A DNA stretch of 64,000 bases from Hexactinellida sp. DTS-2022 (taxonomy: Eukaryota > Porifera > Hexactinellida): the NCBI GenBank assembly GCA_028753945.1, contig JAPNXP010000015.1:1922001-1986000 (forward strand), in the 5' to 3' direction. This document shows positions 3,282 to 63,630 of the stretch, piece by piece (position 1 is the stretch's first letter; each line of letters begins with the position of its first letter). The notes beneath the pieces were generated by a model, which saw nothing but the letters and a program-made list of their open reading frames with translations, searched no databases and was not told the DNA's origin. The position numbers were made by a program, and so were the translations under genes.

Positions 3282-3394
3282 TACTGTGCCGACTATACTA
3301 TAGTATAGTGGCCCAGTATTAGAATCACTGCCTTTATTACTGTGCCGACTATACTATAGTATAGTGGCCCAGTATTGGTCTTAGTGCTTTGGTT
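3282..3394 (+). repeat. PU palindromic repeat, two units
   Basis: Two head-to-tail units each contain CTGTGCCG, the 18-bp palindrome ACTATACTATAGTATAGT and GGCCCAG. The first has the TATTAGAATCACTGCC tail and the second the TATTGGTCTTAGTGC tail. Confidence 0.9.
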
Positions 3395-4478
3395 AGTTAT
3401 TATTATTTATCCGTAGCCACTCCACAGAACAGAGTTTTACTAACTAAGAGCCCAAATTTTCAGGATATGTGTCTCATGGGTTACAGATGTGCACCTGGGG
3501 TCACGATTTTTGATAACACTTTTTTGGACACATTTTTACACCTGTTTAATGTTAGAAAAAGCACAATAAATAGTGCGAGAATATTAAATTTATATGCATT
3601 CGATAGAGAATCTAATTCTACACCTTTTCACAGTGCACGAATTTTTAAATTGGGTTCCATTTGTGCCACAATTGAGTTGCAAGTTTCCTTTGTTTACTAA
3701 CACTTCAGTTCAATTGAAAGTGTTAAATCTAATACTATTGTTTCAACTTGTAATAATTATATTGATTCCACTTGCGAGATCGAGTAGGCTTCTATTTTCT
3801 AATTGAAAACTAAGATTATATATTTCATAACAACGACAGATTATGTGATTATATTTATTTCTGCTTAGAATATTCTTGCACAATGGATACATGACATATT
3901 TAATTCTAATTATTTCGCTTTGTGTTTAACTTATAGAGACGGTTCCAATTAGATTATTGGGGTTATCAAGTGAGCTGAATTCAAATATGATAGTGAAATT
4001 TAATTTAAATTAATAATAATTGCAAATAATTGAACTTCATTTATTTTGCTGTACATAATAATGGTGTAAAATTACTAATAAATTAATAATTATTTATACT
4101 AATTAATTAAATATCAAAAATCTCAGAGATTATACTAGATAGAAACAAACTTCCAATTTATCAATTGATCCTTATGCCAAGTAACACCTCTACAAATGGG
4201 TCTTGACACCTTAAAGTGATGATGAAATCGTCAAAAAAATGTATTTTTACAATTTTTTGAATAAAATAATTCGCATTGGTTAGTTGGAGTTGGGTGTAAA
4301 CCCAACACCCACTTAAAAAATGCTGAGTCATTACAGATTATATTCTACTGAAACTTGAATATCTCTCAAATGAAGTGAGCAAAATGGAAACTTCCACCAC
4401 TCTAAGGGTCGTTGCCTTCTGAAACACCTTTCTGAAATAAAATAACACCTTCAAAGTGATGATGACTTGGCGGAAAAA

Positions 4479-4599
4479 AATCCAAAATTGCAGCCTGTGC
4501 CGACAGCATGTTCCTTTGGAGGCACTATCAATAAAACACCACCAAAATATAGTGCCACCAAAGGAACATGCTATCGGCACAGGCTGCAATTTTGGATTT
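4479..4599 (+). repeat. HP hairpin module
   Basis: The arms start AATCCAAAATTGCAGCCTG and pair through GTGCCGA and CATGTTCCTTTGG to the mirror arm. The loop is ATCAATAAAACACCACCAAA. It is followed 20 bp later by one PU unit. Confidence 0.9.
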
Positions 4600-4619
4600 A
4601 TTATTATTTTTATTATTTT

Positions 4620-4674
4620 TACTGTGCCGACTATACTATAGTATAGTGGCCCAGTATTGGAATCACTGCCTTTA
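4620..4674 (+). repeat. PU palindromic repeat, single unit
   Basis: A single intact palindrome with the TATTGGAATCACTGCC tail, lying between HP and the CCGTAGACGGTGCCCTGG segment. This is the same slot that holds the long arrays elsewhere. Confidence 0.9.
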
Positions 4675-5415
4675 TTTTTATTATTATTTTTATTTTTTCT
4701 CCGTAGACGGTGCCCTGGCCTGAGCTTTATAGTTGATGGGCTGAAACTTGGCATGTAGGTGCGTATGGACCGTCTAATTTGCACCTGGGGTTTCGATTTT
4801 TTATTAACAAATTTTTGACACATCTTTAACACCTTTCAAAATTTGTCTGGTCCATAGCTAGAAAAATGTTTTACTAAACCCCCGAATTTTATTTCACATT
4901 TGGATTCACCATAAAATTCTGCGTCTGATGGGAGAAGAAAATTTGTTAAAATTGGTTTAATTTCTGCCATAAATGGGGGTTGAAATTCCTTTGTTTACTC
5001 AACACTTCTATTTCAATAAAACTGTGAAATCTAATTCCATTGTTTCAACTTGTAATAATTATATTGATTTCACTTGTTAAAGCTTTCACTAGTGTTTCAA
5101 CTTGCGAAAATTAAATTGATTCAACTTATAAATTCCAGCTGGCTTCTATTTAATTCTAGTATTACTATACAATGGATTAAATAAAATATAATAATATAAG
5201 GAATTTGTTGACTAAACTCAAATCACCGTGGATAACATTGCTAAAATAACTAACTAATAATATAATTTATTATCAATACATAATGAATGAATGGCATTAA
5301 ACTCTAGATGGTTTATGATAGAAACAAACTTCAAATTTATCTACTGTTCCTTGTGACTCGGACCAAATAACAAATGCTTCTTCACACCTTGGGCGTTGAT
5401 GACTTGGCGAAAAAA

Positions 5416-5533
5416 AATCCAAAATTGCAGCCTGCGCCGACAGCATGTTCCTTTGGAGGCACTATCAATAAACCATCAACAAAATATAGTGCCACGAAAG
5501 GAACATGCGTCGGCACAGCTGCAATTTTGGATT
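5416..5533 (+). repeat. HP hairpin module
   Basis: The left arm reads CCTGCGCCGAC while the right arm reads GTCGGCACAGCTG, so the outer stem has mismatches absent from the copy at 4479. Confidence 0.88.
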
Positions 5534-6841
5534 TTTTTATTTTTTCTCCGTAGACGGTGCCCTGGCCAGAGCTTTATAGTTGATGGGCTGAAACTTGGCA
5601 TGTAGGTGCGATGGGACCGTCTAATTTGCACCTGGGGTTACGATTTTTGATTAACAAATTTTTGACACATCTTTAACACCTTTCAAAATTTGTCTGGTCC
5701 ATAACACAAAATATGTTTTACTAAACCCCCAAATTTTATTTCACATTTGGATTCACCATAAAATTCTGCGTCTGATGGGAGAAGAAAACTTTCAATAAAG
5801 AGTTTTATTTCTGCCATAAATGGGAGTTGAAATTTCTTTGTTTACTCACACTTCAGTTTCAGTATAACTGTTAAATCTAATTCCATTGTTTCAACTTGTA
5901 ATAATTATATTGATTTAACTTGTTAAATCTTACTCTATTGATTCAACTTGCGATAATTAAATTGATTTAACTTATAAATTGCAGCTGGCTTCTATTTAAT
6001 TTACCATACAATGGATTAAATAAAATATAATGATATAATGATATAAGGAATTTGTTGACTAAACTCAAATCACCGTGGATAACATTGCTAAAATAAATAA
6101 CTAATAATTTAATTTATTATCAATAAGTAATGAATGAATGGCATTAAACTAAAGATGGTTTATGATAGAACCGTTAAGATTTTACATACCACAACAACGA
6201 CAGATTAAGTGATTATATTTATTTCGGCGAGACTATTCTTGCACAATTAATGTATTGACATATTTAATTCTAATTTATTCGCTCTGTGTTTACCGTATAG
6301 AGATGGTTCCAAATAGATTATTGGGGTTATCGAGTGCGTGGAATTCAAATATTATAGTGAAATTCAATTTAAATTAATAATAATTGCAAATAATTGAACT
6401 TAATTTATTTTGCTGTATATAATAATGGTGTTAAATAATTAATAAATTAATTAAATATTTATACTAATTAGCTAAATTTCATTAATCTCAGAGATGATAC
6501 AAGATAGAAACAAACTTTCAATTTATCAATTGGTCCTTATGCCAGGTACTACCTATATTAGTGGGTCTTGACACCTTGAGGTGATTATGACATCGTCAAA
6601 AAAATGTATTTTCACAATTTATGAATTAAATAATTCGCATGGGTTGGTAGGAGTTGGGTGAATACCCAAACGGCACCTAAAAAATGCTGACTCAGCACAT
6701 ATTATATTCTACTGAAACTTGAATATCTCTCAAATGAAGTGAGCTAAAACGAAACTTCCAACTCACTAAGGGTCGTTGCCTTTTGAATCACTTTTCTGAA
6801 ATAGTTTAACACCTTCATAGTGATGATGACATGGCGAAAAA

Positions 6842-6961
6842 AAATCCAAAATTGCAGCCTGTGCCGACAGCATGTTCCATTGGAGGCACTATCAATAAAC
6901 CACCACCAAAATATAGTGCCACCAAAGGAACATGCGTCGGCACAGCTGCAATTTTGGATTT
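6842..6961 (+). repeat. HP hairpin module
   Basis: The left arm carries CATGTTCCATTGGAGG (one substitution). The block of R1 sequence ends right after it, where a hAT coding fragment on the minus strand begins. Confidence 0.88.
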
Positions 6962-21206: not shown

Positions 21207-22221
21207 TCTATATTATTAAATCTCGATTGGTTGTGTGTGTGTTTGTGTGTTTGTCCGGATTGTGTTAAAGTGACGGAGGGAAAGAAACCGCATTAATATA
21301 TGAGATATAAACTAACTGTCAAATGTTATAATTGGTAACAAATGTTATAATAGGTAAACAATTATGCTGAACACGAATTTCGCATTTATAAATTTATAAT
21401 ATGAATATTTGTTGTTGTTGTTGACACAAATAAGTAAACAAATTAATGAAAATTCAAAATCAACCTAGAAGTTTGCTCTCAACGGGGATTATAGGTAAAC
21501 AATTATGCTGAACACGAATTTCGCATTTATAAATTTATAATATGAATATTTGTTGTTGTTGTTGACACAAATAAGTAAACAAATTAATGAAAATTCAAAA
21601 TCAACCTAGAAGTTTGCTCTCAACGGGGATTATAGGTAAAAAATTATGCTGAACACGAATTTCGCATTTATAAATTTATAATATGAATATTTGTTGTTGT
21701 TGTTGACACAAATAAGTAAACAAATTAATGAAAATTCAAAATCAACCAAGAAGTTTGCTCTCAACGGGGATTATAGGTAAAAAATTATGCTGAACACGAA
21801 TTTCGCATTTATAAATTTATAATATGAATATTTGTTGTTGTTGTTGACACAAATAAGTAAACAAATTAATGAAAATTCAAAATCAACCTAGAAGTTTGCT
21901 CTCAACGGGTATTATAGATAAACAAGTGTGCTGAACACGAATTTCGCATTTTTTTATTTATAATATGAATATTTGTTGTTATGTTGTTTACCAAAAATAG
22001 GTAAACAAATTAACGAAAAATTCAAAATCATTCTAGAAGTTTGCTTCCGACGGGAATTATTCGTAAACAAGTCAAAACTATGGAAATGGTAGAAAGGGTT
22101 GTATTAACTTCCTCTAACATTTTCCATGGTAGCAACGGTGGGGAGTAAGGCCGCATAGCGGCCGTTAACTTGAGGTGCGTAGCACCGATCTGTCGCAAAG
22201 CGACCGAGACCGAAGGGCTCG
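21207..22221 (+). mobile_element. Helitron-like non-autonomous element with internal 141-bp tandem repeats
   Basis: It starts TCTATATTATTAAATCTCG after an A and ends GACCGAAGGGCTCG before a T, so it sits between A and T as Helitrons do. The 5' TCTATATTATTAAA motif is Helitron-typical. The 3' end holds compact hairpins (GGTGCGTAGCACC, GTCGCAAAGCGAC) but terminates CTCG rather than CTRR. It carries about five tandem 141-bp units and no Rep/helicase coding. Layout resembles the HINE/pearl class of tandem-repeat Helitron derivatives. Confidence 0.75.
21345..22065 (+). repeat. 141-bp tandem repeat inside the Helitron-like element, ~5 units
   Basis: The motif ATTATGCTGAACACGAATTT recurs at 21361, 21502, 21643 and 21784, and in diverged form at ~21926. 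Units contain TTTGTTGTTGTTGTTGACAC and AGAAGTTTGCTCTCAACGGG. The central units are nearly identical and the outer ones diverge, suggesting unequal exchange. Confidence 0.92.
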
Positions 22222-22239: not shown

Positions 22240-22605
22240 TGTCACGCGATGTGTTTTAATTAGGCTTTACATTTTTATTAATTCCAGAGGCAAAATTACA
22301 GTCATAAATTAGAAAATTGGCTCAAAGGTATAACACAGTTAGTTCTAAAAAGTGATAAATTTTGGGAGCGATTGAGTGAAAGCTGTTGGAGTTATTATTT
22401 ACTTTGTTATTTCGTGACATCATATACCCACAATATGTAAAGAGTTGTTTCACGTTATATTGATCTGTTCAATGAAATCTAGAGTCAATCCGATCAATTT
22501 GAAGGAGTTATGCCAAAAATACCTAGCTAATCACAGTGGGCAAACCAGGGGAAATAGTGTAAGTTTGCAACATTTTAAATCTATTTCCTATTATGTACTT
22601 TTTAC
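22240..22605. other. Intergenic, no feature seen
   Basis: AT-rich sequence between the hAT/Helitron nest and the PU array. No ORF, repeat or RNA gene is recognised. Confidence 0.5.
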
Positions 22606-23260
22606 TGTGCCGACTATACTATAGTATAGTGGCCCAGTATTGGTCTTAGTGCTTTGGTTATTATTATTATTACAGTGCCGACTATACTATAGTATAGTGG
22701 CCCAGTTCTAATCTTAGTGCTTTGGTTAGTTATTACTGTGCCGACTATACTATAGTATAGTGGCCCAGGTCTAATCTTACTGCCTTTAATATTATTATTA
22801 TTACTGTGCCGACTATACTATAGTATAGTGGCCCAGTTCTAATCTTACTGCCTTTAATATTATTATTATTACTGTGCCGACTATACTATAGTATAAAGGC
22901 CCAGTATTTGTCTTAGTGCTTTGGTATATTATTACTGTGCCGACTATACTATAGTATAGTGGCCCAGTTCTAATCTTAGTGCTTTGGTATATTATTACTG
23001 TGCCGACTATACTATAGTATAGTGGCCCAGTATTGGTCTTAGTGCTTTGGTATATTATTATTATTACTGTGCCGACTATACTATAGTATAGTGGCCCAGT
23101 ATTGGAATCACTGCCTTTATTATTTTTATTATTATTACTGTGCCGACTATACTATAGTATAGTGGCCCAGTATTGGAATCACTGCCTTTATTATTACTGT
23201 GCCGACTATACTATAGTATAGTGGCCCAGTATTAGAATCACTGCCTTTATTTTTATTTTT
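22606..23260 (+). repeat. PU array, 10 head-to-tail units
   Basis: Ten units of 56-75 bp each carry CTGTGCCG + ACTATACTATAGTATAGT + GGCCCAG; unit 5 has a damaged palindrome (TATAAAGG). Three tail types alternate without order: TATTGGTCTTAGTGC, TTCTAATCTTACTGCC and TATTGGAATCACTGCC. Units are joined by (ATT)n or ATTTTT linkers of variable length. The array ends at CCGTAGACGGTGCCCTGG, the usual R1 segment. Confidence 0.95.
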
Positions 23261-24387
23261 ATTATTTTTTCTCCGTAGACGGTGCCCTGGCCAGAGCTTT
23301 ATAGTTGATGGGCTTAAACTTTGCATGTAGGTGCGATGGGACCGTCTAATTTGCACCTGGGGTTACGATTTTTGATTAACAAATTTTGGACACATCTTTA
23401 ACACCTTTCAAAATTTGTCTGGTCCATAACTCAAAATATGTTTTACTATATTTGGATTCGCCATAAAATTCTGCGTCTGATGGGAGAATAAATTTTCCAA
23501 TAAAAGGGTCAATTTCTGCCATAAATGGGGGTTGAAATTTCTTTGTTTACTCACACTTCAATTTCAGTAAAGTGTTAAATCTAATTCCATTGTTTCAACT
23601 TGTAATAATTATATTGATTTAACTTGTTAAATCCTACTCTAGTGATTCAACTTGCTATAATTATATTGATTTAACTTCTGAATTCAAGCTGGCTTCTATT
23701 TTGCAATTGAAAATTAAGATTATATATTTCATAACAACGACATATTATGTGAATATATTTACTTCTGCGAGAATATAATTGCACTGTTAATATACTGACG
23801 TAATTAATTATAAATAATTCAGTTTGTATTTAACTTATATAGAAGCTTCCAATTTGTATATTAGAGGTTATCGAGTGTGCGGAATTGAAATTTGATAGAT
23901 AAATAAATTAATTAATTATTTATGACAAAATAATTGAACTTAATAATTGTATGTTGACATTGAAATTGGTGTCATATTATAAATAATATTAATAATTATT
24001 TATACTAATTAATTAAATATCATAAATCTCAGAGATCATAGAAGATAGAAACAAACTTTCAATATATCAATTGGTCCTTATGACACGTGCCACCTATACA
24101 AGTGGGTCTTGACACCTTGAGGTGATGATGACATCGTTAAAAAAATGTGTTTTTACAATTTTGTTAATTCGATATTTAAAATGGGTTAGTTAATGTTGGT
24201 TGATGACCCAACACCCACTTAAAAAATGCTGAGTCATTACAGATTATATTCTACTGAAACTTGAATATCTCTTTAATGAAGTGAGCTGAATGGAAACTTC
24301 CACCACTCTAAAGGGTCGTTGCCTTCTGAAACACCTTTCTGAAATAATTTAACACCTTCATAGTGATGATGACATGGCGAAAAAAAA

Positions 24388-24506
24388 AATCCAAAATTGC
24401 AGCCTGTGCCGACAGCATGTTCCTTTGGAGGCACTATCAATAAACCAACAACAAAATATAGTGCCACCAAAGGATCATGCGTCGGCACAGGCTGCAATTT
24501 TGGATT
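24388..24506 (+). repeat. HP hairpin module
   Basis: The right arm has AAAGGATCATGCGTCGG (one substitution relative to the left arm). The loop is AATAAACCAACAACAAAATA. Confidence 0.88.
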
Positions 24507-25267
24507 TTTTTTTATTATTATTATTTCTCCGTGGCAGGTGCCCTGGCCACACCTGTATACATTATGGGCTGAAATTTGGCATGTAGTTGCGAAGTGACCG
24601 TCTAATTTGCACCTGGGGTTACGATTTTTGATCAAATGCTTTCAACACCTATTTAAACTAATTATGGCTCATAACATGAAATAATTAATATTGAGCTTGA
24701 TAAATTTTACATGTACGGATAGAGAATTAAATTCATCACCTTTTAGCAAATCAAAAATGTTCAATTTGGCCTAGATTTGTGCCTTAATTGGGGTACCAAT
24801 CTCCTGTATTTCCTCACAGTTCAGATTCAATAAAACTGTTAAATCAATTTCCATTGTTTCAACTTGTAATAATTATATTGAATCTAATTCCATTGTTTTA
24901 TCTTGTAATAATTATATTGATTTAACTTGTTAAATCCTACTCTATTGATTCAACTTGGAATAATTAAATTGATTAAACTTATAAATTCCAGCTGGCTTCT
25001 ATTTAATTGTAGCATTACTATACAATGGATTAAATTAAATTAATTTATATAAGGAATTTGTTGACTTTACTCAACTCACCGTGGATAACATTGCTAAAAT
25101 AAATAACTAATAATATAATTTATTATTAATACATAATGAATGAATGGCATTTAACTAAAGATGGTTTATGATATAAACAAACTTCAAATTCAACAATCGT
25201 TCCTTGTGACTCCGACCAATTAACAAATGGTTCTTCACACCTTGGGCGTTGATGACTTGGCGGAAAA

Positions 25268-25386
25268 AATCCAAAATTGCAGCCTGCGCCGACAGCATGT
25301 TCCTTTGGAGGCACTATCAATAAACAACCAACAAAATATAGTGCCACCAAAGGAACATGCGTCGGCACAGGCTGCAATTTTGGATT
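25268..25386 (+). repeat. HP hairpin module
   Basis: The left arm reads CCTGCGCCGACAGCATG; the right arm keeps GTCGGCACAGG. It is followed by a (TTA)n tract and then by R1 in the opposite orientation. Confidence 0.88.
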
Positions 25387-25824: not shown

Positions 25825-25942
25825 AATCCAAAATTGCAGCCTGTGGAAGCATGTTCCTTTGGTGGCACTATATTTTGTTGGTTGTTTATTGATAGTGCCT
25901 CCAAAGGAACATGCTGTCGGCGCAGGCTGCAATTTTGGATTT
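25825..25942 (-). repeat. HP hairpin module
   Basis: A reverse-orientation copy with a deletion in the first arm: CCTGTGGAAGCATGTTCC lacks the CCGAC step that remains in the second arm (TGTCGGCGCAGG). Confidence 0.85.
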
Positions 25943-26680
25943 TTTTTCGCCAAGTCATCAACGCCCAAGGTGTGAAGAACCATTTGTTAATTGGTCCGAG
26001 TCACAAGGAACGGTAGATAAATTTGAAATTTGTTTCTATCATAAACCATCTTGAGTTTAATGCCATTCATTCATTATGTATTGTTAATAAGTTATTTTAT
26101 TAGTTATTTATTTTAGCAATGTTATCCACGGTGAGTTGAGTAGAGTCAACAAATTCCTTAAATTATATTATTTTAGTTAACCCATTGTATAGTAATACTA
26201 GAATTAAATAGAAGCCAGCTGGAATTTATAAGTTAATCAATATAATTATCGCAAGTTGAAACAATAGAGTAAGATTTAACAGGTTAAATCAATATAATTA
26301 TTACAAGTTGAAACAATAGAATTAGATTTAACACTTTCAATTGAACTGAAGTGTTAGTAAACAAAGAAATTTCAACTCCCATTTATGGCAGAAATAAAAC
26401 TCTTTATTGAAGGTTTTCTTCTCCCATCAGACGCAGAATTTTATGGTGAATCCAAATGTGAAAAAAAATTTGGGGGTTTAGTAAAACATTTTCCTAGTTA
26501 TGGACCAGACAAATTTTGAAAGGTGTTCAAAATGTGTCCAAAATTTGTTAATTAAAAATCGTAACCCCAGGTGCAAATTAGAAGGACCTTCCACATCTAC
26601 ATGCCAAGTTTCAGCCCTCAATGTATAAAGGTGTGGCCAGGGCACCTGCTACGGAGAAAAAATAATAAAAATAATAATAA

Positions 26681-26795
26681 AGGCAGTGATTCCAATACTG
26701 GGCCACTATACTATAGTATAGTCGGCACAGTAAAAATATTAAAGGCAGTCATTTCAATACAGGGCCACTATACTAAAGTATAGTCGGCACAGTAA
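26681..26795 (-). repeat. PU palindromic repeat, two units
   Basis: Reverse orientation (AGGCAGTGATTCCAATACTG leading the palindrome). The second unit has CTATACTAAAGTATAG. The run directly adjoins the HP at 26797. Confidence 0.9.
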
Positions 26796-27646: not shown

Positions 27647-30600
27647 CATAGCATTCTATACATAAGGCAATGGTGCTGATTGATGGACTTAGACCAGGGA
27701 TTTGTTAGGTCAGTCAAATTAAATTTTGCGTAGAGCTTATTTACTGCTGGCATTTAGCATTGTACACCGTTAACTAACCATTATAATTCATTCTACATCA
27801 ATTTGCACCAAAAATGGTACATAGGAAGGAATGTCGAAAACTTGTGATTATCTAATTTTTAACCAACCATAATATTTATATATTATTTTACTACTTAGTT
27901 AAAAAAGTTTTTATAAACACTGTTAAATTCATTTCACGACACTTATCTCATCAGAAACGTTCCCCAACAATACAATTCATTTGAAACCTCTACTAGCATG
28001 TCTTGTGTTGTCCCAGGCTGCAAATCTAATTATAAAAGCCAAGATGAGTCTATCTCCGCTTTTCATTTCCCAAGAGACCCGAAGTTACTTGAAGAATGGT
28101 TCAGGGCAATTCCACGGACACGCAAGGACTATGAAACCAACAAGCAGATGAGGGTAAGTATCTATAATTTCCATTTATTGATTGCCATATTTACATTAGT
28201 TTCTTTAGGTATGCATTCGTCATTTCAAAGAAGATGACATTGAAAGGACCATATCCTACAATGACGGGATTCATACTGTTACAGTTTCCAGAGAGAGAAT
28301 AGCTCTGAAGAAGACAGCAGTACCCAGCATTTTCCCCAACTGTCCTTCCTATCTTTCTGAATTCAATTCCAAGCCAAAGAGACTATGCCTAGATGATAAA
28401 GAACGACTGCTGATGGAATCTGCATACTCCAAGAGCATAACTGACAACGAAGAAACGGTGGATAAGTTCCTAGTTAATTCATATTCTGATCTTCTTTCTA
28501 AGCTAAATTTTATCGACCTACCAAACGGCTGGATAACTAATGTGTCTAACAACACCCCTTTATTTTTTATAAAAATCGTTATTTTAGAAACCGGACCTTT
28601 CATCGACCGATCTGTATTAGTTAACGATGATTTATACATCAAAGCATTTGATAATAAAAACGTCACCATTCCGATCTCGCGAATTTTTATTAATGACACT
28701 CGCCAAGTTGAGACCATCCTCGATGAAGTAGATACATTTTCATTCTTACTTGAAACTATTAACTCTCAAACTGAATGTTCTATTAACAACCATATAAAAC
28801 TTGCTATCCATGAACTCGAAAGTGCAATTAAGCTTGTTGATGGTGACTCGATAGACCTAGACATAGATGATTTACATTGCAGTAGCGAATCTCTGAGTAT
28901 TTCATTCCACTTTTTAGTGGGACAACTGAGAAATTTGATAAATGCTAAAAGTCGTCGACGGTATAATATTTTAACTCGAGTATTTTCACTAAAAATTCAT
29001 GGAATATCACCTGCATGTTACCGACTTATTCAATCATCCAATTGCTTAATCTTGCCTCACGAGAGAAATTTGATTGGTATAAAAAACACTCTGGGTATTG
29101 AAGGTGATTATTTTCAAATTCTAAAGGAAATAACTTCAAAATTTAGCCATAGGGAACGCCATGTGATACTTCAAATGGACGAAGTTCACATCCGTAGTGA
29201 TGCTTCATATAAAGGAGGTAAAGTTTTTGGCGCCATTGACAACCCTAGCGACCCCCCCACAACTGTGTTTTCAATGATGATTTCCAGTCTTATGAAAAAG
29301 TTTTCCACCATTGTTCGTCTGATTCCGTTAGGGTCTTCCTCCGCGGCTGATTTATATCCAATTATTACAAAAACAATTTGTGATATAGAGAGTTGTGATC
29401 TATTTGTTGAGGCAATATGTACCGATAATTATCCTTTAAATGTCAGTGTATTTAAATTATTTTCATATGACGCGAAAATATTGCAACCGCGAGTTGTACA
29501 TCCATGTAATCCAACGCGCAACCTTATTTTATTCTTTGACATAGTCCACATTATGAAATCAATTCGTAATAACTGGTTAAATTTAAAAGACTTTGAGAAA
29601 ACTTTTATTTATCCTGATTTTGAGACTTGCACCGATGATATTCCACTAGCAGTAACCATACCATCTACTCAGCTTAAAGTTTCTATACCGGTTGCTAACA
29701 TTATTTTGGATCCGAGGGAATTGACTAAGTCAAAATACCCTCCAATATGCTTTGCAGCATTTGACGACCTCAGAACCTTATTTAAAGCTGACAAATTTTC
29801 CATAATTAAGAGAGCCCCCAAACTAACATCAAAAGCATGTTGGCCATCTCATTTAGAGCGACAAAATGTAAACTTAGCTCTTAAGATCTTTCATGAATCA
29901 ACAGCAGCGGGGCTCTCTAGTTTCTATAATGAGAATACAACAAATGAAAATCGCCATATCGTCAAATTCATACATTTGATAAATAAAATCTGGAACATTT
30001 TCAATGTTAATTGGGTCGGAAAAGATATTCGCTTCAACAATCCAAATTTTGCTCCGCTTCGCTTGAACGATCCGAGATTATCCTTTTTGGACCATGTAGT
30101 TAAATGGCTGGATTGTTGGAAATTACTTCCCACGTCTAGAGGGAAGCTTACACCACAAACATTCACTAGTTTTAGACATACTTGTATTGCCCTCCCTCTC
30201 TTAGTACAGAGATTGACCCTTGAATGCGGTTTTGAATATTTGCTGACTTCTCGAATACAAAATGACCCATTAGAACATCATTTCGGTCTATATCGTCAAA
30301 TGTCTGGTTCAAACTATAATATATCCTACTGTCAAATTTTGGAGAGTGAACGTCGACTTCAATTATCTAATCTCCTCAAATTTTTTAACATAAATCAACA
30401 GTCTGATAAAATATCTCTTAAAGAATATTTGAAAAGATTTACACAGGAGGACGATGAAGAAATGCACCCAGAGTTTGATTTTGAGTATGTTACAAGTGAA
30501 ATACTTAACATTCCTAACCCTCTATTTGATAATTCGCAAATTGAATGCCTAAATTACGTTGCTGGGTATGCAATCTTTTCGTACCTTAAAAATTCTAAAG

Positions 30601-31551
30601 AATGTCGAGACTGCAAAGATTTTTTAACATCTCCCAAAGATATTCAAGTTATTAACGACACCGGATTTTCAATGATTGAATTCCTTGATAGAGGCTCATT
30701 TAAGTATCCATCTGAAATTGTCTACCAATCTCTCATCATAATGTATGAAATATTTTTGAAAATCGATAACCATTCACATTTAAGTAAACTATTTTACGAG
30801 GGATCCTGCCGTCGAAATTTGGTTCAGTTGTCACTTATTATTGTTGAAGAAAAGTATAGTGAAATATGGAGGCAATGGTGTGTTTGTATGATTCCAAAAT
30901 GGGAAATTCTTAAAAATTTTTATACTACTGTAGCTAATTGTATTTTATCGAAGAAAGTTAGAAACTTTAATTCGATAGTTATTGGTCGAGATAATAGCAA
31001 ACTTAAAAAATTCAGTACATAATTCTTCTAATCTTCTAGATAGCTTCCTGACATGCCGATATACCAGTGCGCATCTACTATACTACCATCATTTGACTGT
31101 ATTCTCTACATTACTATCATTTAGACGAGGAGCTCCACTAACACCAACAATTCATCCGCTCATTCAGGACACCGACACATCGTAACCACACTCCCTCCCC
31201 CTGTCGTCATAGATGTACTACTGCTTAACTGCTCTTCTAGTAGAACTCAGATCACTATTCTATTAATTTACCTACATACTATGTATTATCTTTGATTGTT
31301 GCTTTTATACTTATTTTATGTTATAATTAGTATATTTATATATATAAATTACATTCAATAAAAAATATATCCCTACAATTCGTAATTTTCTTAGAAGGGT
31401 GGTGGATTATCAATTATTTCCCTTCACATTGATAGTCTACATTAATTTAGAGCTGTATTGGGATTTAGATCTAAAACCAAAGTAACTGACCTAACAAATC
31501 CCTGGTCCAAGTCCATCAATCAGCACCATTGCCTTATGTATAGAATGCTAT
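27647..31551 (+). mobile_element. P-superfamily transposon, apparently complete
   Basis: Inverted termini of 68 bp (27647-27714 and 31485-31552; start CATAGCATTCTATACATAAG) differ at a single position. The 8-bp flanks GAAATTAC (27639-27646 and 31552-31559) match. The terminal G at 31552 can be assigned to either the terminus or the duplication. The element is about 3.9 kb and holds one spliced gene with no stops. P elements make 8-bp duplications and have CA...TG ends, as here. Confidence 0.92.
27998..31022 (+). CDS. THAP-domain P-element-type transposase (two exons)
   Basis: Exons 27998-28153 and 28209-31022 are joined across a 55-bp GTAAGT...TTTAG intron in phase 0, giving about 989 residues with no disruption. 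The N-terminal THAP zinc finger spans the splice: CVVPGC, FHFPRD, EEWFRAIPR, then VCIRHF and the AVPSIFP box (about residues 1-100). The transposase core follows. Its likely acidic residues are D~376 in LQMDEVHIRSD, D~458 in ICTDNYPLN, D~496 in FFDIVHIMKSIRNNW and E~741 in NDPLEHHFGLYR. These match the conserved blocks of Drosophila P transposase and vertebrate THAP9. The THAP finger binds the element's ends and the core excises and integrates the DNA. The small intron could allow regulation by retention, since intron retention controls Drosophila P, but that is inference. Confidence 0.93.
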
Positions 31552-31730: not shown

Positions 31731-32042
31731 ATCAATATAATTATCACAAGTTGAAACATTTGAATTAAATTTAACACTTTCAATTGAACTGAAGTGTTAG
31801 TAAACAAAGGGAATTTGCAACTCAATAGTGGCACAAATGAAAGGCAATTTGAAAATTCGTGCACTGTGACAAGGTGTAGAATTTAATTCTCTATCGAATG
31901 CATATAATTTGAATATTCTCGCACAATTTATTGTTCTTTTTCTAACATTAAACACCTGTCCTGAAAATTTCAGTTCTTAGTAATTACAACTCTGTTCTGT
32001 GGAGACAATACGGACCAATAATAATAATAATAAAATAATAAC
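31731..32042 (-). repeat. R1 block, reverse orientation, after the P/MITE nest
   Basis: R1 resumes with ATCAATATAATTATCACAAG directly after the duplication and runs to a (AATA)n tract before the PU units. Confidence 0.8.
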
Positions 32043-32548
32043 CAAGGCAGTAAGATTAGAACTTGGCCACTATACTAAGTATAGTCGGCACATTAATAAT
32101 AATAATAAAAATAAAGGCAGTGATTTCAATACTGGGCCACTATACTATAGTATAGTCGGCACAGTAATAAAGGCAGTGATTTCAATACTAGGCCACTATA
32201 CTATAGTATAGTCGGCATAGTAATAACTAACCAAGGCACTGAGATTAGTACTGGGCCACTATACTATAGTATGGTTGGCACAGTATTATAATAACTAATC
32301 AAGGCACTGTGATTAGAACTGGGCCACTATACTATGGTATAGCATTGCCGGCGCCACGTGTTATTAGGTGTGGGTGGGGTGGGTGTCCACTGTATAGTCT
32401 AGTGGGTGTCACCGCTTCATTTCCTTGAGGCAGTGTGTGTCCGGACACCCCCGGTGGCGCCGGCCCTGTTATAATAGTCGGCACAGTAATATCCAATGCA
32501 GTGAGATTAGAACTGGTCACTATACATTAGCATAGTCGGCACAGTAAG
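32043..32548 (-). repeat. PU array, 6 units in reverse orientation, one interrupted
   Basis: Six units with AGGCA(G/C)TGA..-type tails lead into the palindrome. Palindromes are more variable than in the + arrays (CTATACTAAGTATAG, ATAGTATGGTTGGC, CTATACATTAGCATAG). The fifth unit is split by a GC-rich insertion at about 32343-32468. Confidence 0.85.
32343..32468. mobile_element. Small GC-rich insertion in a PU palindrome (hAT-like ends)
   Basis: CATTGCCGGCGCCAC at the left mirrors GTGGCGCCGGCCCTG at the right. The right end, reverse-complemented, is CAGGGCCGGCGCCAC, very like the hAT termini at 14941. It breaks the fifth PU unit inside its palindrome; the flanking duplication is not clear. 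Confidence 0.6.
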
Positions 32549-33022
32549 GAATTGTTGATTAAACTCAACTCACCTCGGATAACATTGCTAAAATAATTAA
32601 CATATTTATGTATTTTATTGTCTATACTTAATTAATTAATAACATTAAACTCATAATGATTTAAGATTGAAACAAACTTCAAATTGATCCAAACTTCAAA
32701 TTGATCGATCTTTCCTCGTTGTTCGTCACCACTTGGAAAATGGGTGTTGAGACCGTGAGGCGTTGATGACATCGCGAAAAAATCCAAAATTTCAGCCTGT
32801 GCCGAAAATTCTTCCCATTTCAGGCCCTACTAGTTACCCAACCACCATATGTAATGCCTCCAAAGAGAAATGCGTCGGCACAGGATGCAATTTTGGATTT
32901 TTTTCCCGTAGCAGGTGCCCTGGCCACACCTGTATACATAGATGGCTGAAACTTGGCATGTAGGTTCGGAGTCGACGTCTAATTTGCACCTGGGGTTACG
33001 ATTTTGTATTAACATATTTTGG
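32549..33022 (+). repeat. R1 block, + orientation
   Basis: R1 segments from GGAATTGTTGATTAAACTC to GATTTTGTATTAACATATTTTGG, including HP at 32781. The R1 sentence continues at 35250 (ACACATCTTTAACACCTTTC) after the inserted MULE. Confidence 0.8.
32781..32900 (+). repeat. HP hairpin module, diverged
   Basis: The outer stem is kept (AATCCAAAATTTCAGCCTGTG / CACAGGATGCAATTTTGGATT without exact pairing at two sites). The inner part is altered (AAAATTCTTCCCATTTCAGG versus CCTCCAAAGAGAAATGCG). Confidence 0.75.
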
Positions 33023-38360: not shown

Positions 38361-38477
38361 AAGGCAGTAAGATTAGAACTGGGCCACTATACTATAGTAT
38401 AGTCGGCACAGTAAAAAAATACAGGCAGTGATTCTAATACTGGGCCACTATACTATAGTATAGTTGGCACAGTAAAA
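38361..38477 (-). repeat. PU palindromic repeat, two units, reverse orientation
   Basis: AAGGCAGTAAGATTAGAACT leads an intact palindrome. The second unit (CAGGCAGTGATTCTAATACT) has TAGTTGGCAC in place of TAGTCGGCAC. Confidence 0.9.
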
Positions 38478-42320: not shown

Positions 42321-42989
42321 CGAGCCCTTCGGTTTCGGTCGCTTCGCGACGGATCTGTACTCCACACCTCAAGTTAACGGCCGATATGCGGCCTTACTCC
42401 TCACCATTTCCACCACTGAGGATGTTATATACATCCCTTTATAACATTTTCAATAGTTTTAGGTTGTTTACCATTTATAGCCTTTGAAAGCCAACTTTAG
42501 GTTCATTTTGAATTTTCATCAATTTGTTTACCTATTTTTAGTAAACAACAAAAATAAATATTCATATTAGAAATGTATAAATGCGAAATTCGAAATCAGC
42601 ACACTTGTTTACCCATAATACCCGTTGAAAGCTAACTTCTGGGTTGATTTTGAATTTTCATTAATTTGTTTACTAATTTGTATAATCAACAACAACAAAA
42701 TTCATAATTGAAATTTCTAAATGCGAAATTCGTGTCTAGCATACTTGTTTACCAATAATATCCGTTGAAATCAAACTTCTAGGTTGATTTTGAATTTTCA
42801 TTAATTTGTTTACTATTTGTGTAGTTTTAAATGCGAAATTCGAAATCAGCATACTTGTTTACCTATTATAACATTTGGAACTTAGTCTCTATCTCAATTA
42901 TAAATGCGGTTTCTATTCCCCCATCACTTTAATACAATCCGGACAAACACATAAACAAACACACAACAATCGAGATTTAATAATATAGA
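42321..42989 (-). mobile_element. Helitron-like element, reverse orientation
   Basis: On the minus strand it starts TCTATATTATTAAATCTCG (42989 downwards) and ends GACCGAAACCGAAGGGCTCG (42321), the same termini as the copy at 21207. Three diverged internal repeat units (GAAATTCG.. CAGCATACTTGTTTACC) are present. Confidence 0.75.
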
Positions 42990-51118: not shown

Positions 51119-51243
51119 ACTGTGCCTTCGACCTTCTATACTACAGTGTAGTGGTCCAGTTCTAAAATGACTGCCTTGATTTTACTGTGCCGACTATGCT
51201 ATGGTATAGTGGCCCTGGCCCAGTTCTAATCTTACTGCCTTGG
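51119..51243 (+). repeat. PU palindromic repeat, two strongly diverged units
   Basis: The first palindrome is CTATACTACAGTGTAG and the second CTATGCTATGGTATAG. GTGCC and CTTACTGCCTTGG tails remain. An R1 fragment (GGTGTCCCATATGTTACAGA) follows to about 51394. Confidence 0.75.
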
Positions 51244-59846: not shown

Positions 59847-60800
59847 TATTACTGTGCCGACTATACTTTAGTATAGTGGCCCAGTATTGAAATGACTGCC
59901 TTTATTATTATTACTGTGCCGACTATACTATGGTATAGTGGCCCAGTTCTAATCTTACTGCCTTGGTTATTACTGTGCCGACTATACTATAGTATAGTGG
60001 CCCAGTATTGAAATCACTGCCTTTATTACTGTGCCGACTATAGTATAGTATAGTGGCCCAGTATTGGAATCACTGCCTTTATTATTATTATTTTTACTGT
60101 GCCGACTATACTATAGTATAGTGGCCCAGTATTGGAATCACTGCCTTTATTATTATTATTACTGTGCCGACTATACTATAGTATAGTGGCCCAGTATTGG
60201 AATCACTGCCTTTATTTTTATTTTTACTGTGCCGACTATACTATAGTATAGTGGCCCAGTATTAGAATCACTGCCTTTATTATTTTTACTGTGCCGACTA
60301 TACTATAGTATAGTGGCCCAGTTCTAATCTTACTGCCTTTAATAATATTATTATTACTGTGCCGACTATACTATAGTATAGTGGCCCAGTATTGGAATCA
60401 CTGCCTTTATTATTTTTACTGTGCCGACTATACTATAGTATAGTGGCCCAGTATTGATCTTACTGCCTTTAATATTTTACTGTGCCGACTATACTATAGT
60501 ATAGTGGCCCAGTATTGGAATCACTGCCTTTATTATTTTTATTATTTTTACTGTGCCGACTATACTATAGTATAGTGGCCCAGTATTGGAATCACTGCCT
60601 TTATTATTTTTACTGTGCCGACTATACTATAGTATAGTGGCCCAGTTCTAATCTTACTGCCTTTAATATTATTATTATTATTATTTTTTACTGTGCCGAC
60701 TATACTATAGTATAGTGGCCCAGTTCTAATCTTACTGCCTTTATTTTTACTGTGCCGACTATACTATAGTATATTATTTTTATTTTTATTATTTTTATTT
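59847..60800 (+). repeat. PU array, 15 head-to-tail units
   Basis: Fifteen units. The first four contain single substitutions in the palindrome (CTATACTTTAGTATAG, CTATACTATGGTATAG, CTATAGTATAGTATAG), most of the rest are identical, and the last is truncated after the palindrome. Tails TATTGGAATCACTGCC and TTCTAATCTTACTGCC are interspersed. Linkers are ATT/ATTTTT runs of 3 to 25 bp. The array ends at CTCCGTAGCAGGTGCCC. Confidence 0.95.
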
Positions 60801-61842
60801 CTCCGTAGCAGGTGCCCTGGCCACACCTGTATACATTGAGGGCAGAAACTTGGCATGTAGTTGCGGAGGGACCGTTTAATTTGCACCTGGGGTTACGATT
60901 TTTGATTACCCAATTTTTGACACATCTTTGACACCTTTCAAAATTTGTCTGGCCCATAGCTCAAAATATGTTTTAATAAACCCCCAAATTTTATTACATA
61001 TTTGGATTCACCATAAAATTCTGCGTCTGATGGGAGAAGAAAATTTGTTAAAATTGGTTTAATTTCTGCCATAAATGGGGGTTGAAATTCCTTTGTTTAC
61101 TCAACACTTCAATTTCAATAAAACTGTGAAATCTAATTCCATTGTTTCAACTTGTAATAATTATATTGATTTAACTTGTTAAATCTTTCACTATTGTTTC
61201 AACTTGCGATAATTAAATTGATTCAACTTATAAATTCCAGCTGGCTTCTATTTAATTCTAGTATTACTATACAATGGGTTAAATATAATATAATAATATA
61301 AGGAAATTGTGGACTAAACTCAAATCACCGTGGATAACATTGCTAAAATATATAACTAATAATATAATTTATTATCAATACATAATGAATGAATGGCATT
61401 AAACTCTAGATGGTTTATGATATAAACAAACTTCAAATTCAACAATCGTTCCTTGTGACTCCGACCACTTAACAAATGGTTCTTCACACCTTGGGCGTTG
61501 ATGACTTGGCGAAAAAAATCCAAAATTGCAGCCTGCGCCCGACAGCATGTTCCTTTGGAGGCACTATCAATAAACCACCAACAAAATATAGTGTTCCGAA
61601 GGAACATGCGTCGGCACAGCTGCAATTTTGGATTTTGTATATTATTATTATTCCGTAGACGGTGCCCTGGTTTTTTCTCCGTAGACGGTGCCCTGGCCAG
61701 AGCTTTGGAGTTGATGGGCTAAAACTTGGCATGTAGGTGCGATTGGACCGTCTAATTTGCACCTGGGGTTACGATTTTTGATCAACAAATTTTGGACACA
61801 TTTTTGACACCTTTCAAAATTTGTCTGGTCCATAACTAAAAA
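60801..61842 (+). repeat. R1 block, + orientation
   Basis: R1 from CCGTAGCAGGTGCCCTGG to HP at 61517. A duplicated CCGTAGACGGTGCCCTGG segment follows and the block breaks at CATAACTAAAAAAATCC into the reverse-orientation HP. Confidence 0.85.
61517..61634 (+). repeat. HP hairpin module
   Basis: The left arm has CCTGCGCCCGACAGC (an extra C). The inner right arm is altered to ATAGTGTTCCGAAGGAAC. Confidence 0.85.
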
Positions 61843-61961
61843 AATCCAAAATTGCAGACTGTGCCGACCATGTTCCTTTGGTGGCACTATATTTTGTTGT
61901 TTGTTTATTGATAGTGCCTCCAAAGGAACATGCTATCGGCACAGTCTGCAATTTTGGATTT
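61843..61961 (-). repeat. HP hairpin module
   Basis: The outer stem CAGACTGTGCCGAC pairs with GTCGGC(A)CAGTCTG-type sequence. The substitution (CAGACTGTG/CACAGTCTG) is present on both arms, so pairing is kept (right arm reads ATCGGCACAGTCTG). Confidence 0.87.
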
Positions 61962-62702
61962 TTTTTCGCCCAGTCATCAACGCCTCAAGGTGTCAAAAAC
62001 CATTTGTTAATTGGTCCGAGTCACAAGGAATGGTAGATAAATTTGAAGTTTGTTTCTATCGTAAACCATCTATAGTTTACTGCCATTCATTCATTATACT
62101 ATATCGATAATAAATTATATTATTAGTTATTTATTTTAGCAATGTTATCCACGGTTAAGTTTAATTAAGTCAACAAATTCCTTATATTATAATATTTTAT
62201 TTAATCCATTGTATAGTAATACTACAATTAAATAGAAGCCAGCTGGAATTTATAAGTTAAATCAATATAATTATCGCAAGTTGAATCACTAGAGTAGGAT
62301 TTAACAAGTTAAATCAATATAATTATTACAAGTTGAAACAATGGAATTAGATTTCACAGTTTTACTGAAATTGAAGTGTGAGTAAACAAAGAAATTTCAA
62401 CCCCAATTTATGGCAGAAATTGACCCCTTTATTGAAATATTTTTTTTCCCATCAGACGCAGAATTTTATGGCGAATCCAAATGTGAAATAAAATTTGCGG
62501 GTTTAGTAAAACAATTTTTGAGTTATGGACCAGACAAAATTTAAAAGGTGTTAAAGATGTGTCAAAAATTTGTTAATAAAAAATCGTAACCCCAGGTGCA
62601 AATTAGACGGTCCCATCGCACCTACATGCCAAGTTTCAGCCCATCAACTCTAAAGCTCTGGCCAGGGCACCGTCTACGGAGAAAAAAATAATAATAATAA
62701 TA
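61962..62702 (-). repeat. R1 block, reverse orientation
   Basis: Complement landmarks from CGCCCAGTCATCAACGCC to GCCAGGGCACCGTCTACGG, ending in an (AAT)n tract before a single PU unit. Confidence 0.85.
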
Positions 62703-62757
62703 AAGGCAGTGATTCCAATACTGGGCCACTATACTATAGTATAGTCGGCACAGTAAA
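62703..62757 (-). repeat. PU palindromic repeat, single unit
   Basis: AAGGCAGTGATTCCAATACT leads an intact palindrome. It sits exactly at the junction between a reverse and a forward R1 block. Confidence 0.9.
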
Positions 62758-63630
62758 AAGATGTTTTACTAAACCCCCAAATTTTATTTCATATTTTGAT
62801 TCACCATAAAATTCTGCGTCTGATGGGAGAATAAATTTTTCAATAAAGGGGTCAATTTCTGCCATAAATGGGGGTTGAAATTTCTTTGTTTACTCACACT
62901 TCAATTGCAGTAAAGTGTTAAATCTAATTCTATTGTTTCAACTTGTAATAATTATATTGATTTAACTTGTTAAATCCTACTCTAGTGATTCAACTTGCGA
63001 TAATTATATTGATTTAACTTGTTAAATCCTACTCTAGTGATTCAACTTGCGATAATTATATTGATTTAATTTATAAATTCCAGCTGGCTTCTATTTAATT
63101 CTACCATTACTATACAATGGATTAAATTAAATTAATTTATATAAGGAATTTGTTGACTTTACTCAACTCACCGTGGATAACATTGCTAAAATAAATAACT
63201 AATAAGTTAATTTATTATCAATAAGTAATGAATGGCATTAAACTAAAGATGGTTTATGATAGAACCGTTAACATTTTACATTCCACAACAACGACAGATT
63301 AAGTGATTATATTTATTTCGCGAGAATATTCTTGCACAATTCTTGTACTGACGTAATTTATTATAATTAATTCCTTTTGTATTGAACTTATAGACGGTTC
63401 CAATTGGATTATTGGGGTTATCGAGTGCGCTGAATTCAAATATGATAGTGAAATTCGATTTAAATTAATAATAAGTGCAAATAATTGAACTTAATTTATT
63501 TTGCTGTACATAATTATGGTGTTAAATTATTAATTTATTAATTAAAAATTTATATTGATTAGCTAAATTTCATTAATCTCAGAGATGATACAAGATAGAA
63601 ACAAACTTTAAATTTATCAATTGGCCTGTT
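62758..63630 (+). repeat. R1 block, + orientation
   Basis: R1 from AAACCCCCAAATTTTATTTC to AACAAACTTTAAATTTATCA. A ~60-bp internal duplication (TCCTACTCTAGTGATTCAAC twice near 62975 and 63030) is seen. Confidence 0.85.

Follow-up and report, generated by a model that had tools for sequence, protein, structure and literature searches.

Palindromic repeat arrays in a hexactinellid sponge genome as the 5' ends of a Helentron family, with nested self-insertion as a probable route of array growth

The window analysed here, a stretch of 64,000 nucleotides from the genome of Hexactinellida sp. DTS-2022, is part of contig C7 and holds Slu7, CBF/Mak21-family and DUF1168 genes, transposase-like frames, and arrays of a short palindromic unit that stand in front of non-autonomous transposable elements of the HINE type (Table 1). 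A 937-aa open frame at 28209-31022 carries TNP-like RNase H and GTP-binding insertion domains, which we take to be features of a P-element-type transposase, and a 518-aa open frame at 33392-34948 matches MULE transposase and FLYWCH domains, with a unit array and a HINE hairpin nearby. Searches of the window for tRNA genes and Rfam families gave no match.

The unit is 35 nt long and is composed of ACTGTGCCG, an 18-bp palindrome and GGCCCAGT; it is followed by a tail (9-nt loop, 10-nt arm) and then by an ATT/T linker, with a repeat period of 56-70 bp. At up to three mismatches the window contains 40 matches to the palindrome, where chance predicts 0.03. A count over the whole genome (112.4 Mb, 18 contigs), as proposed in the first-pass annotation of this DNA, returned 5,702 exact cores and none for the reversed control, while 7,015 units were detected at up to three mismatches over 28 bases. 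The exact 28-base unit was not found in viral and prokaryote contigs, and a text search of the literature with 16 bases of the palindrome gave no match. By parsing 293 kb of fetched loci together with the window, we obtained 42 arrays with 136 units. The arrays of 10 and 15 units that had first drawn attention are both present (22604-23249 and 59851-60783); one core in the former carries two changes, and in the latter four cores carry one change each and the last unit lacks its right arm and tail. Eight further arrays of the parse lie in the window, with one, two or three units each and five of them on the minus strand, and the first-pass claim of arrays in both orientations is borne out there, as are its array sizes of 1, 2, 10 and 15 units; a six-unit array, also claimed, is obtained only if the diverged units at about 32000-32550 are counted. 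The dinucleotide TT precedes 132 of the 136 units. Tails, earlier sorted into three types, do not separate so cleanly, being mixed combinations of four common arms and six common loops across the 136 units.

Table 1. Unit arrays and HINE copies located in the window
Feature	Coordinates	Strand	Remarks
10-unit array (35-nt hairpin, tail and ATT linker)	22604..23269	+	last unit with tail ends at 23249
HINE body behind the 10-unit array	23270..24505	+	TCTCCGTAG start to 3' hairpin 24389-24505
Second HINE body	24526..25385	+	without own unit, directly behind a 3' hairpin
HINE, opposite orientation	25826..26793	-	two units 26697-26793, body, 3' hairpin 25826-25940
Two units with tails	3283..3392	+	open cluster 3283-6959
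HINE, body start S2	3408..4597	+	3' hairpin 4480-4597
HINE, one unit (4621)	4621..5532	+	S1 start 4698, 3' hairpin 5417-5532
HINE body S1 without own unit	5545..6959	+	hairpin end 6844-6959, then non-element DNA
15-unit array	59851..60783	+	inverted HINE copy abuts on left
HINE body behind the 15-unit array	60800..61633	+	3' hairpin 61518-61633
Complete one-unit HINE	61838..62759	-	inside A/T run of another HINE
Two units, then body start S3	38378..38473	-	
Three units (32131-32284) and diverged units broken by other DNA	32131..32545	-	
One detected and one diverged unit, then body start S4	51135..51218	+	

The elements behind the arrays share a common order, which runs from a T-run through one or more units, a subfamily tail, the ATT/T linker and a body to a 3' hairpin of about 120 bp and a second T-run. 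Bodies open with the S1 start, TCTCCGTAG...GGTGCCCTGGCC, or with one of three other start types (S2-S4). Where an S1 start adjoins a unit (n=30), that unit has arm type a in 29 cases and no readable tail in one, and the S2-S4 starts (n=8) follow other arms in seven cases and a unit without readable tail in one. The tails are marks of element subfamilies. The 46 non-autonomous copies parsed measure mostly 0.8-1.45 kb; as complete S1-to-hairpin bodies they are 774-861 bp (29) or 1,236-1,456 bp (15) long, with single copies of 1,604 bp and 2,127 bp. The 3' hairpin is a strong fold (-58.6 kcal/mol, z=-19.7, for window positions 4476-4602), and its loop was counted 5,613 times in the genome, against the 7,015 units. 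A 10-bp inverted match between the two ends was seen by eye: CTGTGCCGAC lies at the 5' end, and the arm of the 3' hairpin contains its complement. Boundaries to other DNA are formed by a T-run followed by a unit on the left and by a hairpin followed by a T-run on the right, so that the target is a T-run. At 61838-62759 a minus-strand element that has a single unit and a single hairpin splits another HINE at an A/T run, and in the sequence at hand at least 59 aligned stretches, with no more than 6 counted per locus, cross its empty site without the insertion. An odd junction, in which TCTCCGTAGAC runs straight into an inverted segment of HINE body, occurs twice in the window (at about 25417 and 36461).

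Two other element types had been considered. Foldback elements have long terminal inverted repeats that are built of tandem units, and inverted arrays in the window first suggested such a structure; here, units occur at one end only and the other end is a different hairpin. The Foldback reading was rejected because the ends differ and because the empty site fits an element with a 5' unit and a 3' hairpin. Readings of the (AAT)n tracts as LINE or SINE tails, or as Penelope, were set aside once the Helentron 5' end described below had been found; reverse transcriptase matches are many in the genome.

The first-pass annotation had also described the core as better conserved than its surroundings, and had considered selection on a dyad-symmetric protein-binding or recombination site. 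Over the 136 units, differences per base amount to 1.1% in the core, 0.7% in the left flank and 2.5% in the right flank; relative to the nearest common type they reach 1.4% in the loop and 0.4% in the arm, two values that are biased low by assignment to the nearest type, and detection of a unit itself required resemblance. Within types, core and tail therefore diverge about equally, and special selection on the core is for this reason not supported. The impression of a conserved core probably came from mixed element subfamilies. Changes to palindrome pairs affect a single partner in 25 cases and both partners in one. The reading as a separate satellite, or as a selected dyad bound by a host protein, carried along next to transposons, could point to the perfect 18-bp palindrome and to the folds of two units as DNA (z=-2.96 and z=-1.70), but the core is no more conserved than the left flank or the tail of its own type, and parsed units precede an element body or another unit, except in three arrays and in those cut at a locus end. 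We regard this explanation as highly improbable; the arrays are not a free satellite. No clear solo unit was seen in the parsed sequence, the one candidate (L004) being degenerate.

Genome-wide, 151 matches to Helitron_like_N were obtained, and among the matches listed 20 have open frames of 1,652-1,709 aa. One autonomous copy (L034, on C12) starts with TTTTT, one unit, a tail, ATT and TCTCCGTAG, and encodes a protein of 1,698 aa with Helitron_like_N, PIF1 helicase and Exo_endo_phos domains. The Rep match (PF14214, E=1.7e-28) and the helicase match (PF05970, E=7.4e-24) lie in the same protein, and the endonuclease (PF03372, residues 1250-1428) stands behind the helicase with 30.4 bits (cut-off 24.5); an OTU match is sub-threshold (21.4 bits, cut-off 23.3), and RPA gave no match in three ORFs at E up to 0.01. 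For five further autonomous copies the 5' regions were covered, their positions set by the distance to the Rep match. The body start lies directly behind units in three of these (at least 12, 3 and 3); a fourth follows a hairpin and has an S2-type start with no unit, and the fifth is preceded by a HINE. Among the 3' regions of three autonomous copies, one (C2, L042-L043; its 5' region is L037) ends in the HINE 3' hairpin, and the stretches for the other two stop short of it; the 5' and the 3' end were hence observed on different autonomous copies. The palindromic unit is almost certainly the 5' terminus of a Helentron family. A match of the unit to the terminus of a known autonomous transposon, which the first-pass annotation had named as evidence against its proposal, is what the start of L034 provides. 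Of that proposal, the idea of a recognised dyad stands in another form, in that the dyad probably belongs to a site which a protein recognises, the Helentron end, and the idea of a specially conserved core is not supported. Rolling-circle transposition is putative for the elements described here and is suggested by the family to which the protein belongs. Behind the Helentron ORF, tandem repeats occur in the 3' non-coding part (L034-L035), some with a unit of about 130-140 bp and others with a shorter, G-rich one. A second Helitron family (family A, L033), with a 1,902-aa frame matching Rep, PIF1 and OTU, has no unit in the 9.4 kb analysed; tandem repeats of about 141 bp at 21350-22070 and 42464-42820 of the window match the region upstream of its frame, another instance of repeats close to the 5' end of a Helitron.

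These features agree with Helentrons and their HINE/DINE-1 derivatives, as far as the available part of Thomas et al. 2014 (PMC4067079) describes them. Shared traits are the fusion of Rep/helicase to an endonuclease (with the OTU-like match sub-threshold here), a 5' inverted repeat with a short complement, a microsatellite, a 3' palindrome, T-runs at both ends, a TT target and non-autonomous deletion copies. In contrast to the Helentrons of that account, the 5' units here are repeated head-to-tail up to 15 times and the 3' hairpin measures about 120 bp, and the inverted match between the ends has 10 bp, compared with 11-15 bp.

How such arrays may grow is suggested by the junctions between the parts. 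In the route that we infer, including its order of events, its enzyme mechanism and the loss of bodies, a TT-seeking rolling-circle element would insert between the 5' unit and the body of a resident copy, in the T-rich linker and with matching orientation. Each insertion would add one unit to the array and leave the resident body directly behind the 3' hairpin of the newcomer, in the order unit-unit-body-hairpin-body-hairpin; the counts would afterwards shift as units duplicate locally and recombination removes whole bodies. Genome-wide we counted 3,183 unit-unit, 2,218 hairpin-body, 1,822 unit-body and 698 hairpin-unit junctions, all of them lower bounds from exact patterns of unequal strictness, the body pattern CCGTA missing type S3; plain concatemers would yield hairpin-unit junctions. 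The 74 S1 body starts, many from loci chosen for holding S1, have a unit before them in 30 cases, a hairpin in 44 and other DNA in none. An ATT linker is expected between unit and body; hairpin-body gaps also keep a remnant ATTATT in 21 of 49 cases, and hairpin-unit gaps in 2 of 19. Gaps from a hairpin to other sequence have it in 2 of 20, both missed body starts; read by hand, these 20 comprise 3 missed body starts, 4 miscalled left arms and 13 genuine cases, with ATT in 0 of the 13.

The composition of whole clusters is consistent with the same route. In the cluster at 3283-6959 the balance is exact, as units, bodies and hairpins each number three, and over 17 clusters of C1 below 2.4 Mb the number of extra units correlates with that of unit-less bodies (Spearman 0.59, permutation p=0.0066), in low counts taken from exact places among the matches listed and from S1 starts only. 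All 20 pairs of C1 arrays within 10 kb of each other, among those listed, share their orientation. At larger distances the listed C1 pairs agree in 5 of 6 cases (10-50 kb) and in 13 of 17 (farther apart). Directly adjacent bodies are mostly not tandem duplicates, as 9 of 16 pairs have no alignment over 80% of the shorter copy; the remaining seven have a mean identity of 91.0%, compared with 88.2% between loci.

Arrays may also lengthen independently of transposition, if their 56-70-bp units undergo replication slippage, unequal exchange or gene conversion. Neighbouring units agree in arm type in 58 of 91 cases, where shuffling inside each array leaves 48.9 (p=0.0015), and therefore point to local duplication, which preserves this much of the local gene conversion and expansion first envisaged; identical linkers are found in 5 of 44 adjacent same-class pairs and in 59 of 1,231 pairs between arrays, and the longest arrays carry excess units, with 10 units against 2 following bodies at 22604 and 15 against 2 at 59851. 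As the general cause of the arrays such processes are nonetheless unlikely, for they leave unexplained the 2,218 hairpin-body junctions, the ATT remnants behind 3' hairpins, the near-parity of units and hairpins, and the correlation of extra units with unit-less bodies, and tail types are mixed in every parsed array of at least three units (16/16). A single event, the rolling-circle amplification of a circle that lost its 3' terminator, would likewise put many 5' ends in front of one body, and truncated bodies between units do exist (L020 near 3080; C1:2422801). A single event should, however, give identical units, and none of the 16 arrays is uniform; moreover, 9 of the 16 mix arm classes that belong to different body types, and hairpin-body junctions are not predicted. 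We consider this amplification quite improbable, more so than slippage or conversion.

Nested self-insertion is, on balance, the probable main route of array growth, and several results run against its strict form or do not decide. Strict nesting predicts equal numbers of unit-unit and hairpin-body junctions, which is not what the genome-wide counts give, and of the 7 neighbouring array pairs within 10 kb in the window, 2 have opposite orientations. Of 17 displaced bodies (14 scored by script, 3 by hand), 16 agree with the tail class of the unit predicted for them, against 14.4 expected from array composition (P=0.17), with one mismatch at C1:2243440-2244740. Two-unit runs common to different arrays numbered 0 against 0.04 expected, and are hence uninformative. 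Nesting is hence the best single account, with local duplication and probably body loss needed beside it. The explanation that we find best overall, and hold to be likely, is that the units are Helentron 5' ends whose arrays arose mainly by self-insertion and were modified by duplication and loss of bodies.

The principle of self-insertion is already in the literature at smaller scale. For the FoHeli Helitrons of Fusarium, in which several 5' termini accompany a single 3' terminus, self-insertion was proposed as the cause (PMC5148889), and there, too, a short 5' sequence is multiplied before one element; the available part of that account mentions 'a number of' such elements and one nested example, whereas here the units number thousands and unit-less bodies sit behind 3' hairpins. 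In bivalves, according to the accessible text on Cg_HINE/Pearl (PMC7492417), satellite-like short arrays have likewise been spread genome-wide by HINEs, but there the repeats are central, and in the sponge the array itself makes up the terminus. Truncated centromeric Helitrons of plants, in tandem arrays for which a rolling-circle origin was proposed (Xiong et al. 2016, as described in the available part of PMC12628747), also have multiple 5' ends per 3' end; in the sponge, by contrast, the units within an array are of mixed types. The Helitron and Helentron literature, in the excerpts available, contained no description of genome-wide 5'-unit arrays this large; what is new is their extent.

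What looks like a striking 'palindromic satellite' can be the stacked termini of one transposon family. It is conceivable, if tentative, that the family's own insertions land preferentially in the 5' unit and its linker. Were this true, the clusters would be legible element by element as a record of nested insertions, and by targeting itself the transposon would be able to spread at little cost to the host. The thousands of junctions form a large natural data set on Helentron target choice and on how transposon ends become satellite-like arrays, for which earlier proposals of self-insertion drew on fewer cases.
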